Origin: an uncultured Pseudomonadota bacterium
GTDB lineage: Bacteria > Myxococcota_A > UBA796 > GCA-2862545
Direction of reading: 5' to 3'
Assembly (NCBI GenBank): GCA_913061235.1
Contig: CAJXTB010000003.1
Coordinates: forward strand, 62,001-126,000
Length of the DNA: 64,000 bases
Made by a program: the position numbers and the translations under genes. This document shows positions 2,166 through 9,698 of this stretch, one piece after another. Numbering within the stretch: position 1 is the first letter of the stretch; each line of letters starts with the position of its first letter. Under the pieces are notes generated by a model, which saw only the letters and a program-made list of their open reading frames with translations, was not told the origin of the DNA and searched no databases.

Positions 2166-2938
2166 TTCCGTTCGTCCTACCGCCAATGACCGTCGAAGCG
2201 CCAGAACTAGCCGCTCACTATGCCGAGGTACGCCCACTTCACGCGGTCACCGCTCAAGTCAGCCCAGGTGGCCTGCCACCACGCCCACGCGACCTGAACG
2301 ACTTCACTCCAGGAACGATTGACGTACGTGGAAAGCTGTCGTTCAACGGTGTCGGCAACGGTCCGTTTTCGCTGGTTGGCTCGTTCATTGGCTGGAACGA
2401 AATTGGCTTTGGCGTGGACGTCGGCGTCGTTGGCCAGGACGACGTCACCGTTGGCATTGGCGGCGAGATCTATGCCTCGAGTCCCGTCATCTTCTTCCTG
2501 TTCAGCGAGCTGCTGTTCGACCTGCTCTCGCCTAGCGCCCAGGTCGACTGGTCTGCTGCAGAGACAGGCATGCTCGGCCGGGTCACCATTCACTACAACG
2601 CGCTGAAGACGTTCGAGGTGTACGCTGCCGGCCTAATCGGCCCGAACACCTACGCCTTCCGAGCCACCGTCACAGACGAAGACGGCGACCAACTCCGGGC
2701 TCGGTTCCGCACGTTTGGTGTTCGCACAGGCATCGCTGGTGGCGCCCTACATGCATGGGAGAGCGGCTGGACCTTGTCTGGAGAGCTGCGCTACCTCATC
2801 ACGCCACGTGCACGCAGCGCCGGCGAGATTGACCTGGTCAATGGTGCCGGAGACGTCATCTCCGTTCTGGACACCGTCTTGTATCAGCGAGGTCCAAAGG
2901 GATTCTCGTGGCAGCTCATGGCCGGCCGCCGCTTCTAG
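2162..2938 (+). CDS. Hypothetical beta-rich outer-membrane-type protein
   Basis: 258 residues from a TTG start that overlaps the mpl stop (TTGA), so translation is probably coupled; an in-frame ATG at 2186 is an alternative. After about 55 residues, alternating hydrophobic and polar stretches rich in Gly and aromatic residues follow, as in outer-membrane barrels, and the chain ends in Arg-Arg-Phe. A C-terminal Phe is the usual BAM recognition feature. No clear Sec signal peptide is seen at either start, which is odd for a barrel and could mean the start is misplaced. I recognise no family. A structural cell-envelope role is inferred only from fold pattern and its position after mpl. Confidence 0.6.
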   Translation: MIPFVLPPMTVEAPELAAHYAEVRPLHAVTAQVSPGGLPPRPRDLNDFTPGTIDVRGKLSFNGVGNGPFSLVGSFIGWNEIGFGVDVGVVGQDDVTVGIGGEIYASSPVIFFLFSELLFDLLSPSAQVDWSAAETGMLGRVTIHYNALKTFEVYAAGLIGPNTYAFRATVTDEDGDQLRARFRTFGVRTGIAGGALHAWESGWTLSGELRYLITPRARSAGEIDLVNGAGDVISVLDTVLYQRGPKGFSWQLMAGRRF

Positions 2939-3459
2939 GCCACCTTCAGATAGGGATGCCACTCTTCCGGCGGCACCGTCACCACTAGGGCTCGGTGAGA
3001 CGTTGCCAAGAACGTTGGCTTTCGTGGCTGCGTGGTGAGAGGCATGCGCGCCTGTGCAGGTAGACGGGCGCCCTTTCGACGATTGCACGGACCGCAGGCC
3101 AACACCACGTTCTCCCAGGTCGTAGGCCCTCCTTTGCTACGAGGAATGACGTGGTCCATCGTCAGCTCCCGGCCCGACGGACAGCCGCCACAGTACTGAC
3201 ACGTCCCACTGTCACGCAGAATGAGGTTGCGACGCGTCAAGGCGACCGTTCGGTTCCGCATACGCAAGTATTGACGAACACGAATCACAGCTGGAAGTGG
3301 CCACTCATCGTGCGCTGTCCGCACAACTTGGTCGTAGTACTCCATGACGTCCACACGGTCAGAGAGGTCCAAGACCAACCCCCGAGTCCATGGAATGGCG
3401 CACATTGGCCGACATCCAGAGTCCAACATCAAGGTCCTGTACGCATCCAATTTCGACAA
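2935..3459 (-). CDS. HNH endonuclease
   Basis: 174-residue HNH nuclease of the stand-alone type common in soil bacteria. After a beta-rich N-terminal region, it has zinc-knuckle CQYC at about 87-90, the catalytic DHVIPRSKGG at about 102-111, ENVVLAC, and a second knuckle CGPCNRRKG at about 122-130. I chose TTG 3459 because a full GGAGGT Shine-Dalgarno sits four bases upstream (3464-3469 on the plus strand) and the family alignment begins just after it. An upstream-extended reading to 3627 would overlap the divergent aminotransferase gene. The 3' end overlaps the convergent barrel-like gene by 4 bp. Its target is unknown; nothing nearby suggests an intein, intron or restriction system. Confidence 0.82.
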   Translation of the reverse strand: MSKLDAYRTLMLDSGCRPMCAIPWTRGLVLDLSDRVDVMEYYDQVVRTAHDEWPLPAVIRVRQYLRMRNRTVALTRRNLILRDSGTCQYCGGCPSGRELTMDHVIPRSKGGPTTWENVVLACGPCNRRKGARLPAQARMPLTTQPRKPTFLATSHRALVVTVPPEEWHPYLKVA

Positions 3460-3497
3460 GGGTACCTCCAATGCTAGAAAAAACTCCATCATTTGCA

Positions 3498-3509
3498 TTG
3501 ACCCGTCAA
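3498..3509. promoter_or_regulatory. Palindromic operator candidate TTGACCCGTCAA
   Basis: A perfect inverted repeat TTGAC-CC-GTCAA lies in the 84-bp gap between the divergent HNH gene and the aminotransferase operon. A further half site TTGACT begins at 3518, exactly 20 bp (two helical turns) from the first TTGAC. This is the geometry of a dimeric repressor site. No regulator gene is adjacent, so the binding protein is unknown. Confidence 0.35.
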
Positions 3510-3543
3510 GTACTCTTTTGACTCCATCGCGATATGCGGTCGC

Positions 3544-4833
3544 ATGACTGGCTCCGACCTCCCAGCGCTGCGCACCGCACTTCCGGGACCCAATTCCCGC
3601 GCGCGTGTTGATGAGCTTGCAAAGCACGAGTGCCCCGCTGTGACCGCACGCAGGGCGCGTAGGGCAGCATCCCTAGGAACTGATCAGGACGACCCAGTGG
3701 TTTGGGCCAGTGCTGTCGGCGCAAATGTCGAAGACGTGGACGGAAACCGCTTCGTTGATCTAATGGCCGGCTTCGGTGTGGCGTTCGTCGGTCACCGTCA
3801 TCCAGCGGTCGTGGCTGCCGCAACGCGCCAGACCCACACGCTTATCCACGCCATGGGAGATGCCTGGCCGGACCGCTCACGCATTGCCCTGCTCGGCTTA
3901 CTCGCAGGTGTTGCCCCGGGTGATCTGTCGGTGAGCATCCTTGGATTGTCGGGCTCTGATGCGGTGGACGCAGCGGTCAAGACCGCCGTCTTAAAGACGG
4001 GTCGCTCCGGCGTCTTGACCTTCGACGGTGGCTACCATGGACTCGCGACCGGCGTGCTGCCACTACAGGGCTACAAGAGCGCGTTCAGCGAACCCTTCGC
4101 CGGGCTGCTGCGTGACCCCGGGCCTCGCCTCGCCTTCGGCTGCCCCATCGCAGACGTAGACGCGGCTCTAGCGGGCGGAGACGTCGGCCTTATCTTGGTA
4201 GAGCCTGTACAAGGGCGCGGTGGCATGCGTCCCGCACCAGACGGTTGGCTGGGCGACCTTCGAGACGCCGCACACCGCCACGGAGCGCTGCTGTGCTTTG
4301 ACGAGATTCAGTGCGGCATGGGTCGGACTGGCTACTGGTTTGCCTGCGAGCATGACAACGTTGTTCCCGACCTCATGTGCATTGGAAAGGCCCTCGCTGG
4401 CGGCTTCCCACTGTCCGCGTGCATTGGAACCCCAGAAGCGATGAACGGGTGGGCCGCATCCACCGGTGAAGCGCTTCACACCCAGACCTTCCTGGGTCAC
4501 CCGGTCGGATGTGCGGCAGCTCTCGCCACTATCGAGACGATTGACGACGGAGACCTCATCGGCTGGGCCAAGCGACGTGGTGACTTCCTCCGCACAGCTC
4601 TTGAGAGCACAGGGGTCTCGGTTCGCGGACGCGGCCTGATGCTTGGCATTGAGCTTGGGGATTCCTCGTTCGCTGTCTCGCGCGCACTGCTACGACGTGG
4701 ATGGATCTGCCTTCCTGCTGGCATGCGCGGCGAGGTCATTGGGCTCACTCCGCCCGTCTGCATGACACAAGCGCAGATGGAGAGCCTGTCCGTTGCGCTG
4801 ACCGAGGCCATTGTGGAAGTTCGCAATGCGTGA
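3544..4833 (+). CDS. Class III PLP-dependent aminotransferase
   Basis: 429-residue fold-type I aminotransferase of the omega-aminotransferase class. Visible marks are NRFVDLMAGFGVAFVGHRHP at 68-87, a pyridoxal-phosphate phosphate-binding GLSGSDAVDAA at about 134-144, FDGGYHG near 160, the ring-stacking Asp253 in CFDEIQCGMGRTG, and Schiff-base Lys282 in CIGKALAGGFPLSA. The class uses amines, terminal amino acids or aldehydes as partners. It is the first gene of a coupled operon: its stop overlaps the start of the LuxE-like gene. That context suggests it aminates an aldehyde made by the two downstream enzymes. Known class III enzymes such as ornithine or GABA aminotransferases remain an alternative. 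Confidence 0.88.
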   Translation: MTGSDLPALRTALPGPNSRARVDELAKHECPAVTARRARRAASLGTDQDDPVVWASAVGANVEDVDGNRFVDLMAGFGVAFVGHRHPAVVAAATRQTHTLIHAMGDAWPDRSRIALLGLLAGVAPGDLSVSILGLSGSDAVDAAVKTAVLKTGRSGVLTFDGGYHGLATGVLPLQGYKSAFSEPFAGLLRDPGPRLAFGCPIADVDAALAGGDVGLILVEPVQGRGGMRPAPDGWLGDLRDAAHRHGALLCFDEIQCGMGRTGYWFACEHDNVVPDLMCIGKALAGGFPLSACIGTPEAMNGWAASTGEALHTQTFLGHPVGCAAALATIETIDDGDLIGWAKRRGDFLRTALESTGVSVRGRGLMLGIELGDSSFAVSRALLRRGWICLPAGMRGEVIGLTPPVCMTQAQMESLSVALTEAIVEVRNA

Positions 4834-5845
4834 TGCTGCCGGAGTCCTGCTGGCACAGCGGGTCCACACACTGATCACAGCCGCAGTCAGTGGCCAAACC
4901 TACGAGCCCGTTGGGCCACTAGCCATCGACATCTGGGACTACCAAGTACAGCGCGACGCGGTTGCGGCGCGCTTAGTAGACGGCCCCGTCGCCACCTGGC
5001 AAGACATCCCAGCTGTACCCGTTGCTCTGTTCAAACAACTTGAGGTAGGCACGGTCGCTCGTGACGCCGCGCCGGTCGTTTTTCGCACCTCTGGGACCAC
5101 GCACACGGGACGCGGTGTACACGCCATGGCCTCAGCGGACCTGTACGAGTTCAACGCAAACGCATGGGCGTCTAAGTACTTGGGCGAGCTGCCCGCCGAA
5201 CACGTCGCCCTACTGTCAGACCCGACCCGCGTCCCAGATGCCAGCCTGTCGCACATGGTCGCAGGCATGCGCGACATCTGCACGCCTGGGAAGACCACCT
5301 GGCACATTCACGACGGCGTACTCCAACGACGCGCGCTCAACGAGCGAGTCGCCCAGCTCAAACACCCCTGCTTCATTGCAACCACCGCCTTTGCCCTTGC
5401 CGAGTGGCTGGACGGTGACTGCGCTCTGCCGCCAAAAGACAGCCTGATGATGGTCACCGGCGGCTTCAAAGGCCGCGTTCACAAGCTGGACGGCGACCAG
5501 TTGCTGTCGATTGCGAGCCAGAGACTCGGCTGCCGCATTGTCACCGAGTACGGAATGACCGAGCTGTCTTCGCAGCTGTGGGGACAGCCGGGTGAGCCGT
5601 TCACGCCGCCACCATGGCTGCTAGCAACCGCCGCAGACCCCATCACCGGCGTGGACCTTGCCCCCGAGACTGTGGGCCAGCTGCGATTTCTCGACCTCTG
5701 CAACCTGGACTCTGCTGTGCGAATAGAGACCTTGGACCAAGGCATTGTGCATGCAGATGGGCGAGTGACCTTGCACGGTCGACTTCCCGGTGCGCCCGCT
5801 CGTGGCTGCTCGCTGACCATCGAAGACGCTTGGCAAGCCCGATGA
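4826..5845 (+). CDS. LuxE-like acyl-protein synthetase
   Basis: 339 residues, LuxE (acyl-protein synthetase) superfamily, an adenylate-forming enzyme that activates a carboxylic acid with ATP and hands the acyl group to a reductase thiol. Seen: IPAVPVALFKQLEV at 61-74, ATP-loop-like FRTSGTT at 86-92 followed by GRGVHAM, MMVTGGFKGR at 208-217 and the adenylation motif EYGMTELSSQLW near 241. ATG 4826 overlaps the aminotransferase stop by 8 bp; a TTG at 4811 is the only longer alternative. The 3' end overlaps the LuxC-like start by ATGA. No luciferase genes luxA or luxB are present, so light emission is unlikely. The substrate acid is unknown. Confidence 0.86.
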   Translation: MRDAAGVLLAQRVHTLITAAVSGQTYEPVGPLAIDIWDYQVQRDAVAARLVDGPVATWQDIPAVPVALFKQLEVGTVARDAAPVVFRTSGTTHTGRGVHAMASADLYEFNANAWASKYLGELPAEHVALLSDPTRVPDASLSHMVAGMRDICTPGKTTWHIHDGVLQRRALNERVAQLKHPCFIATTAFALAEWLDGDCALPPKDSLMMVTGGFKGRVHKLDGDQLLSIASQRLGCRIVTEYGMTELSSQLWGQPGEPFTPPPWLLATAADPITGVDLAPETVGQLRFLDLCNLDSAVRIETLDQGIVHADGRVTLHGRLPGAPARGCSLTIEDAWQAR

Positions 5846-6807
5846 GAATCGCAGACGTCAAAGCCTGGCGGGACCACTTGCTCGCGCTCCCGGTCCCTTC
5901 GTCTCACCTGTCCCCGGCGGGAGCAGAAGAGGTCTGGCTCGGAGCCCTCGCGGCGCTGAGCAATGAAGCTCTGGACGCCATTGATGACGGACCTGCTTAC
6001 AAGACAGCCGTTCTCGTCTGCGCACGTACAGTGCTGACCGCTCCCCTAGAGTGGTGTGCCGTGTTGTTGGCGCGAGGGACCCGTGTCACCCTGAAGGTAC
6101 CGTCAGCGTCACCGGGGTGGACGGACGCAATGGTCAACGCGGCAGCGCACGTCGGCCTGCCCCTGACCGCTACGACAGACAGGAGCGTGGTCGCAAACGC
6201 CGAGCTCGTCGTCGCCATGGGAACAGACGAGACGATGGACGCTGTCCGCCCCCTCATCAGCGGGACGTTCATCGAGCTGGGTCACCGGTTCTCCGTCGCC
6301 TATGTCACCCAAGACTGGCAGGCGGTTGCCCAGGATGCCGCACGCCATGATGGACGCGGCTGCTTTTCGCCCACTGTTGTCTTGTCCAGCGACCCGAACG
6401 CTATCGAACACCTCGCCAAGGCTATGGCGGCGACGCAGGAACAGTGGCCTCTTGGCGACGTCAGCCCGATTGAAGGCGCAACCTCTCGCGCTCGCGGCGC
6501 ATTGGCTCGCGTCACCGGACGCTGCCTGTCTGGGGACGGCTGGTCGGTACACCAGCTGCCGGTCGAGCACCTAGAGCCCACGGCACTGCCACGCTCCATC
6601 GCTCTGATTGCAGTGGCCAACGAGCAAGAAGCCGTAGACATCATCGCCCGATTCGGACGCTGGCTGTCTTGTGTGTCAACGGACGGCGACCCCGCACTGT
6701 GGCAGGGCCTGCAGCCGTCTCGTATTGTGGCGCCAGGTGACCTGCAGCGCCCTGTCCTTCACCGCATTCATGACGGTCTGGACTGGGTGCGCGCGACGCG
6801 CCCTTAG
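5842..6807 (+). CDS. LuxC-like acyl-thioester reductase
   Basis: 321 residues, LuxC / acyl-CoA reductase family with an aldehyde-dehydrogenase-like fold, reducing an acyl thioester to the aldehyde with NAD(P)H. The catalytic Cys is Cys174 in GRGCFSP, the same setting as in LuxC. It is clearly shorter than the Vibrio enzyme (about 480 residues), mainly at the N-terminus. The start overlaps the LuxE-like stop by ATGA, which argues for a stable reductase-synthetase pair. With the upstream aminotransferase this gives a plausible acid to aldehyde to amine route. It ends 24 bp from the convergent sigma factor gene. Confidence 0.82.
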   Translation: MRIADVKAWRDHLLALPVPSSHLSPAGAEEVWLGALAALSNEALDAIDDGPAYKTAVLVCARTVLTAPLEWCAVLLARGTRVTLKVPSASPGWTDAMVNAAAHVGLPLTATTDRSVVANAELVVAMGTDETMDAVRPLISGTFIELGHRFSVAYVTQDWQAVAQDAARHDGRGCFSPTVVLSSDPNAIEHLAKAMAATQEQWPLGDVSPIEGATSRARGALARVTGRCLSGDGWSVHQLPVEHLEPTALPRSIALIAVANEQEAVDIIARFGRWLSCVSTDGDPALWQGLQPSRIVAPGDLQRPVLHRIHDGLDWVRATRP

Positions 6808-7925: not shown

Positions 7926-8894
7926 CTAAGTCAGTCCCGTGCGAGAACGCACCCGGTCGACTGTGGCGGCGGCGACCTCGCGAGCCCGCTCGGAGCCGCG
8001 TTGTAGGACCTGTTTGACGCTGTCCGGTTCATCGACCCAGCGTTGGTACTCTTCACGTGGCCCTGCGAGCAGCGCATCGAGTGCCTCGAACAAATCCTGC
8101 TTGAAGTGTCCATGGCCAAAACCACCGGACAGGTAGCGCCCACGAAGGGCTGCTGTGTCTTCGGCGCTCGCCAGAAGCTTGTACAGCTCGAACACCGTAT
8201 CGCCGTCTGGATTCTTTGGCTCTTCAACTGGGGTGCTGTCGGTGACAATCTTCATCAGCAGCTTGCGCAGCTTCTTGGGCGGCAGCCACAGCGGAATCTC
8301 ATTGCCGTACGACTTGCTCATCTTCTTGCCGTCGAGCCCCGGAATGGTGGCCACACTGTCCTTGATAGAGACAGTCGGTACGGCTAGTGTTCCTTCACCA
8401 AAGTGATGGTTCATCTTAACCGCTAGGTCGCGAGCGACCTCCACATGCTGCTTCTGGTCGCGACCGACCGGTACAATGTCCGAGTCGTACAGGAGGATGT
8501 CAGCCGACATGAGCACTGGGTAGTACCAAGTGCCTACGTTGACGTCTAGCCCGCCATCTTTGGCAGACTTCACGGCATGCCCGCGCTCCAACACTCCGGT
8601 CGGAATCTGACACGACAGAATCCACGCGAGCTCGCACACTTCTGGGACGTCCGACTGACGGAACAGCGCCGCCCGGTCTGTATTGAGTCCTAGGGCAAGC
8701 CACGTAGCTGTAGTTTCTAGGGTGAATTTACGGAGCTTGGCAGGGTCCCGCACTGTGGTCATCGCGTGGTAATCGGCGATGAAATAGAACGCCTCGTACT
8801 CATCTGCCAATGCCAATGCAGGGTCAATCATGCCAAGCCAGTTTCCGACATGAACGTTGCCGGTGGGCTTGATGCCGGTCAGGGCGCGCTTCAC
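7926..8894 (-). CDS. trpS: Tryptophan--tRNA ligase
   Basis: 322-residue class Ic aminoacyl-tRNA synthetase charging tRNA-Trp. Seen: ALTGIKPTGNVHVGNWLG at 4-21, containing the HIGH-type motif as HVGN; YFIADYHAMT; FRQSDVPEV; GRDQKQH; and the KMSKS loop at 191-195 in GKKMSKSYGNEIPL. Its length matches bacterial TrpRS. I chose GTG 8894 because AGAGGA lies six bases upstream and family proteins begin here. The frame remains open upstream to 9203, but that segment overlaps the divergent hydrolase start and has no homology. The window holds no other trp gene. Confidence 0.95.
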   Translation of the reverse strand: MKRALTGIKPTGNVHVGNWLGMIDPALALADEYEAFYFIADYHAMTTVRDPAKLRKFTLETTATWLALGLNTDRAALFRQSDVPEVCELAWILSCQIPTGVLERGHAVKSAKDGGLDVNVGTWYYPVLMSADILLYDSDIVPVGRDQKQHVEVARDLAVKMNHHFGEGTLAVPTVSIKDSVATIPGLDGKKMSKSYGNEIPLWLPPKKLRKLLMKIVTDSTPVEEPKNPDGDTVFELYKLLASAEDTAALRGRYLSGGFGHGHFKQDLFEALDALLAGPREEYQRWVDEPDSVKQVLQRGSERAREVAAATVDRVRSRTGLT

Positions 8895-9005
8895 AACCAA
8901 TCCTCTTGCGGGTGCGCCGGGTATGGTGTTGCAGCAGTGGCTGCTCATGGCGCGGCGCACCATACCGGAAACGCCAGACGCTATCCACCGCAATTGGAGG
9001 CACAG

Positions 9006-9698
9006 ATGTCGGACATGAGGGTGAACCTGGGACGTGTGGCGTTGCGAGAGGCCATTGCCACTGTGCGCACAGGGCTGTGGCCGGTGGCTCGGTTGCGCCC
9101 GCTGCCAAAACCGACACCGCGCCCCACCCGCGGACTCGCCCCCGTCGTGTTGGTGCACGGGTTCCTCGGTCATCCCGACTGCTTGCGTAATCTGGCCCGA
9201 CACCTACTGATTAGCGGCGTGCCACTTGTAGAACGCGTGGCATATCCGTCCACCACCAGCGACCTGCCCCACATCATGGGCGCCATTGGCGATGTTGTGC
9301 GTAGGGTCCATGCGGAGTTCGGTCCGGTAGACCTGGTTGGACACTCCCTTGGCGCGGTCGCATGCCGGGCATGGCTCAAGACGGAAGGCGGCGACGCCTA
9401 CACCCGACACTTCATCGCTCTCGGCGGCCCGCACGCCGGAACGGCCTGGTGGCGATTGACCCCGCCGTGGCTACACGACGTTCTACGACCCGACGGCCCC
9501 TGGGTGCGCAACCTGTCGGTGGGTCCCGAACCCGTGCCCACAACCGTCATTCGTGCGCGGTACGACCAACAGGTCTTCCCTCCCCAGCGCGCCCAGATCC
9601 CAGGTCTTCATGAAGTCGTGCTCGACGGCCTGGGCCACAACGGATTGTTGTGGGACCGCCGCTGCCACCAGGCCATCCTTCAGGTTCTCACCGAGTAG
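9006..9698 (+). CDS. Alpha/beta-hydrolase, lipase or PGAP1-like
   Basis: 230-residue alpha/beta hydrolase. Seen: oxyanion-hole motif VVLVHGFLGHPDCL at 47-60, nucleophile elbow VGHSLGAVACRAW with Ser114, IALGGPHAGTAWW, a likely acid Asp in VIRARYDQQVFP and the C-terminal catalytic His in DGLGHNGLLWD. This pattern fits triacylglycerol lipases and palmitoyl-type esterases of the PGAP1/LipA group. No signal peptide is seen; residues 1-45 are basic. ATG 9006 has GGAGG five bases upstream and a divergent gap of 111 bp from trpS, so it likely has its own promoter. The substrate is unknown. Confidence 0.85.
   Translation: MSDMRVNLGRVALREAIATVRTGLWPVARLRPLPKPTPRPTRGLAPVVLVHGFLGHPDCLRNLARHLLISGVPLVERVAYPSTTSDLPHIMGAIGDVVRRVHAEFGPVDLVGHSLGAVACRAWLKTEGGDAYTRHFIALGGPHAGTAWWRLTPPWLHDVLRPDGPWVRNLSVGPEPVPTTVIRARYDQQVFPPQRAQIPGLHEVVLDGLGHNGLLWDRRCHQAILQVLTE

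Follow-up and report, generated by a model that had tools for sequence, protein, structure and literature searches.

We propose that three overlapping genes in the window (the whole stretch of 64,000 nucleotides that was analysed) form a self-contained pathway which would convert a carboxylic acid into a primary amine, most likely starting from a medium- or long-chain fatty acid; we give this reading a probability of roughly 0.55. The proposal builds on two encoded proteins that match the fatty-acid reductase chains 7xc6_E and 7xc6_A and carry invariant acyl cysteines, on the near all-or-none co-occurrence of the three genes and their retention when unlinked, on an aminotransferase clade of their own, on a LuxE-LuxC fusion, on lipid-gene neighbours and on the precedent of TamA/TamH. 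In the proposed route, the LuxE-like enzyme would adenylate the acid with ATP and hold the acyl group as a thioester on Cys328. The acyl group would then be handed to the LuxC-like reductase, at Cys174, and reduced with NAD(P)H to an aldehyde, which the aminotransferase (Lys282, PLP) would convert to the primary amine. The resulting fatty amine may be used as a lipid or built into one.

The three genes occupy positions 3544-6807 of the forward strand as a single operon. The first encodes a class III PLP-dependent aminotransferase (AT; 3544-4833, 429 amino acids), the second a LuxE-like acyl-protein synthetase of the ANL/PaaK fold (4826-5845, 339 amino acids) and the third a LuxC-like acyl-thioester reductase of the ALDH fold (5842-6807, 321 amino acids). 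The LuxE-like gene begins with the ATG at 4826, so that its first 8 nt coincide with the end of the AT gene, and its own stop shares an ATGA with the LuxC-like start (4 nt overlap at 5842); the mechanically derived open reading frames of these two genes begin upstream of the real starts, at 4811 and 5614, respectively. In luminous bacteria, characterised LuxE-LuxC reduces fatty acids to aldehydes. The first-pass annotation had described an overlapping operon of these three genes lacking a luciferase. Its coordinates are right and its account of the operon agrees with ours, and no luciferase gene (luxAB) was found among the identified neighbours.

The identities of the LuxE-like and LuxC-like proteins, as predicted from family profiles and structure models, are well supported, and the invariance of their catalytic cysteines likewise bears out the family names given at first pass. 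A profile of the LuxE-like family (profile A1) matches the solved LuxE chain 7xc6_E with an E-value of 4.6e-33. The protein itself had no match in Pfam, PF04443 included, and scored 22.2 bits against the NCBIfam LuxE model (NF052244), whose cut-off is 550; because it falls under both family cut-offs, we call it LuxE-like and not a LuxE equivalog. Its AF2 model (pLDDT 91) has a PaaK/ANL adenylating fold (Z 23.8), with PaaK-type aryl and short-acyl ligases as the closest folds; 7xc6_E was listed for this model by neither Foldseek nor VIA, though the sequence profile finds it. The predicted acyl-carrying cysteine, Cys328 in the C-terminal motif RGCS (codon at 5807-5809, forward strand), is invariant in 25/25 aligned family members and in 78/78 untruncated relatives. 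The LuxC-like protein scores 39.1 bits against PF05893, over the gathering score of 21, and its family profile matches 7xc6_A (E = 1.1e-28). This chain is also the best Foldseek match (E = 5.6e-17) of the AF2 model, which has an ALDH fold and a pLDDT of 96.1. The predicted catalytic cysteine, Cys174 (GRGCFSP; codon at 6361-6363, forward strand), is the same in all 27 family members and all 64 relatives.

The AT belongs to class III by its match to PF00202 (E = 1.8e-82) and by its predicted PLP-binding lysine, Lys282 (codon at 4387-4389, forward strand), which is invariant in 24/24 sequences of the A3 alignment and in 47/47 across phyla. A tree built from 57 class III aminotransferases places all 47 ATs of the trio family in a single clade with a support of 0.999. 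The best matches are diamine- and ornithine-type enzymes, namely the putrescine aminotransferase 4uox, which is the closest solved relative (E = 7.8e-60), and acetylornithine models. When the AT is aligned to 4uox, Gly400 (codon at 4741-4743, forward strand) falls in the column that we take, from knowledge of GABA-AT and YgjG, to be that of the flipping arginine (KTIRIEPP in YgjG). This arginine, found in most class III transaminases, usually reads the alpha-carboxylate of glutamate. It occurs in three of the eight other class III ATs of the same genome, the ArgD-like one included, and in none of the 47 trio-family ATs. The AT thus lacks the residue that characterises the glutamate/2-oxoglutarate class III transaminases (GABA-AT, YgjG, ArgD), a point about the amine donor that counts against the proposed pathway.

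Acid-to-amine logic of the same kind is familiar from ornithine synthesis, where ArgB, ArgC and ArgD activate an acid, reduce it to an aldehyde and transaminate the aldehyde with a class III AT, although through an acyl phosphate and not through the enzyme thioester envisaged for the trio. We ruled out the trio as an ornithine/arginine route because ArgC is encoded elsewhere in the genome, beside the ArgD-like AT and away from the trio. Another class III AT of this genome (L168, at G000:C40:8745-9917) has PigE as its closest NCBIfam counterpart (275 bits) and carries Ser in place of the PLP lysine (MMSVSSILSGG), so that it may be inactive or repurposed.

Across the phylum, a genome tends to have either the whole trio or none of it, and this nearly all-or-none pattern, which holds also where the genes are separated from one another, is well supported. 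Absence of joint occurrence elsewhere had been set beforehand as a test that could refute the cassette. The test was run on 94 genomes of Myxococcota and relatives, sampled from the organism's own genome outwards through family, order, class and phylum, and the cassette was not refuted: 78 genomes carry all three genes, 11 carry none and five are partial drafts, counts that rest on cut-offs chosen per profile and are uncorrected for shared ancestry. Among the 78, all three genes are linked in 54, LuxC lies elsewhere in 18, the AT lies elsewhere in five and all three are scattered in one. At least one gene is therefore unlinked yet retained in 24/78 genomes; a few of these cases may be contig breaks, and one single-contig genome has its AT about 0.64 Mb from the rest of the trio. 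The link between AT and LuxE is persistent (72/78 genomes), and LuxE and AT are both counted in 51/53 high-quality genomes of the sample. At the level of neighbourhoods, the trio is complete in 36/40, with the gene order kept in nearly all, as judged by automatic ORF clustering, which merges LuxE and LuxC, followed by an HMM re-check. The four exceptions lack the AT near LuxE (L064, L069) or lack LuxC (L058, L072).

Such a pattern might reflect vertical co-inheritance only, the linkage being functionally meaningless, and a flanking sigma factor and TrpS are indeed also syntenic within the order. We regard this as highly improbable, since the trio persists from family to family with different genes on either side, scattered genes are retained, the reading frames overlap translationally and LuxE and LuxC are fused into one protein of 700 amino acids in one genome (L059).

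At least 574 LuxE relatives were found among named genomes, inside and outside Myxococcota, from which 80 loci were retained for comparison; no LuxE relative was found in viral contigs. Among the matches listed, relatives outside Myxococcota come from Omnitrophota, Gemmatimonadota, Verrucomicrobiota, Planctomycetota, Chloroflexi and others. AT and LuxC lie within 1.5 kb of LuxE at 40 of these 80 loci (themselves 80 of at least 574), where some contigs do not extend far enough for a decision. Genomes of Gemmatimonadota, Verrucomicrobiota, Chloroflexi and Bradymonadia usually do have the AT, but at an unlinked site. Seventeen genomes with a LuxE locus lacking an adjacent AT were searched whole for an AT of the trio family, and 12 encode one elsewhere, scoring above 440 bits as against at most 329 for the other class III ATs there. 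The AT is in two pieces in one of the remaining genomes, two from BRC1/Sumerlaeota have an AT from outside the clade only, and two have none. The two BRC1/Sumerlaeota loci (L129, L138) were considered as the same system and are not counted, because their best ATs keep the arginine and fall outside the clade, and LuxC was not found beside LuxE. In three f16 genomes, the unlinked AT is directly preceded by a member of a 360-amino-acid family (L186:4832-5965, L187:7423-8571, L188:4883-5956) that gave no Pfam match for the two members tested and looks, by eye, exported or outer-membrane.

LuxE-LuxC pairs without an adjacent AT at several loci would also fit a different arrangement, in which LuxE and LuxC make an aldehyde for another use, such as an ether lipid or an alcohol, and the AT acts in the same pathway on something other than that aldehyde. 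Flagellin glycosylation islands of Aeromonas and enterobacteria offer a parallel: they hold LuxE and LuxC amid ACP, FabG and glycosyltransferases, again as a non-luminous pair tied to fatty acid genes, with no claim of an amine and no AT-LuxE-LuxC trio described there (PMC7874193, PMC4875605). We find this arrangement unlikely for the trio, given that genomes without an adjacent AT usually still encode a trio-family AT, that the three genes are kept or lost together in the 94 phylum genomes and that AT and LuxE are so often linked.

For the acid-to-amine reading that we prefer, the question of substrate leads to the gene surroundings. The flanks of intact trios are mostly generic and vary by lineage (HemE, GltB, YchF, FHA-GGDEF), so there is no biosynthetic cluster around them, and we dismissed conserved surroundings as a pointer to the product. 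An HNH endonuclease gene lies divergent from the AT in the window (2935-3627, reverse strand), and the same family is found beside the AT in several other family members. Lipid genes recur at loci where the operon is broken up, next to LuxE, LuxC or AT in several lineages, in cases picked from many loci without a background rate. In g20-type loci (L097, L103, L140, L175-L179), AT and LuxE are divergent and an OleA-like KAS III follows LuxE; LuxC is found at another site, preceded by a PlsC-type acyltransferase gene (by Pfam on one locus, the gene family being clustered in all five). In two Verrucomicrobia-type loci, the AT is followed by plsX-fabH. The Gemmatimonadota AT is preceded by an enoyl-reductase-like SDR and overlapped at its downstream end by a lipase-like hydrolase, and in L104 and L145 a lipase-like hydrolase separates AT from LuxE. 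The window itself encodes a lipase/palmitoyl-thioesterase-like hydrolase at 8766-9698 on the forward strand, 2.2 kb downstream of the trio, whose kin adjoin the trio-family AT in Gemmatimonadota; by analogy with LuxD, and as speculation, this enzyme could supply free fatty acids.

These neighbours in a few lineages, taken with the ancestry of LuxE and LuxC, suggest that the substrate is probably fatty. The same three steps might instead act on a non-fatty acid (for instance a short hydroxy-, amino- or dicarboxylic acid) and yield a diamine, an amino alcohol or a cofactor building block. The diamine- and ornithine-type matches of the AT, the aryl and short-acyl ligases nearest to the LuxE-like fold and a near-universal conservation that fits a small core metabolite all point this way, while the lipid genes beside the trio genes and the reduction of fatty acids by characterised LuxE-LuxC (7xc6 is titled a fatty acid reductase complex) point away from it, and on balance we consider it doubtful. 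With respect to the first-pass proposal of an acid-to-amine cassette that would make fatty or other amines, the cassette itself is upheld by the protein identities, the near all-or-none co-occurrence and the distinct AT clade; the reactions, their order and the fatty substrate are what we infer.

The closest chemical precedent is the tambjamine pair TamA and TamH, which converts a C12 acid to the C12 amine via the aldehyde with L-Glu as donor (PMC9594044). The likeness lies in the activation of a fatty acid with ATP, the reduction of a thioester to an aldehyde and the formation of a fatty amine by a class III transaminase (PMC9594044). TamA/TamH is built differently, pairing an ANL-ACP fusion with a transaminase that has an AAR-type reductase joined to it, and is encoded inside a pyrrole antibiotic cluster. 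In contrast, the trio consists of mostly separate LuxE, LuxC and AT proteins with a LuxC/ALDH-type reductase and without ACP, has no recognised secondary-metabolite cluster around it and is near-universal in the phylum. With LuxC-LuxE of luminous bacteria (7xc6), the trio shares the two enzyme families, the invariant acyl cysteines and a LuxC model whose best match is 7xc6_A. It differs in having no luxAB nearby, a LuxC of 321 instead of 477 amino acids and a LuxE under the family cut-offs; in the proposed pathway, the AT would take the place of luciferase as the consumer of the aldehyde. Our literature search found no paper describing an AT-LuxE-LuxC trio or LuxE/LuxC in Myxococcota. An N-acyl amine spectral match from Corallococcus (PMC10609524) was considered as evidence for the product and set aside as too weak, the match being to a pentylamide. 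As far as could be found, the chemistry is known in kind, and what is new is the combination of enzymes, the fact that it stands alone and how nearly universal it is in a phylum sample.

Scattered antibiotic clusters already provide examples of the enzymatic conversion of acids to amines. In the phylum sample, 51/53 high-quality genomes keep the logic of the trio with no recognised secondary-metabolite cluster around it, and this points to a basic component of the cell. Loci in the named strains Minicystis rosea DSM 24000 and Polyangium sp. 15x6 make the question directly testable, and the trio enzymes may serve as catalysts for making amines from fatty acids. We put forward tentatively, as a possible rather than a probable reading, that a near-core pathway of Myxococcota, found also in Gemmatimonadota, Verrucomicrobiota, Omnitrophota and Chloroflexi, would turn free fatty acids into a long-chain primary amine, and that a cationic amine lipid, or a lipid derived from an amine, may hence have gone unrecognised in these bacteria.
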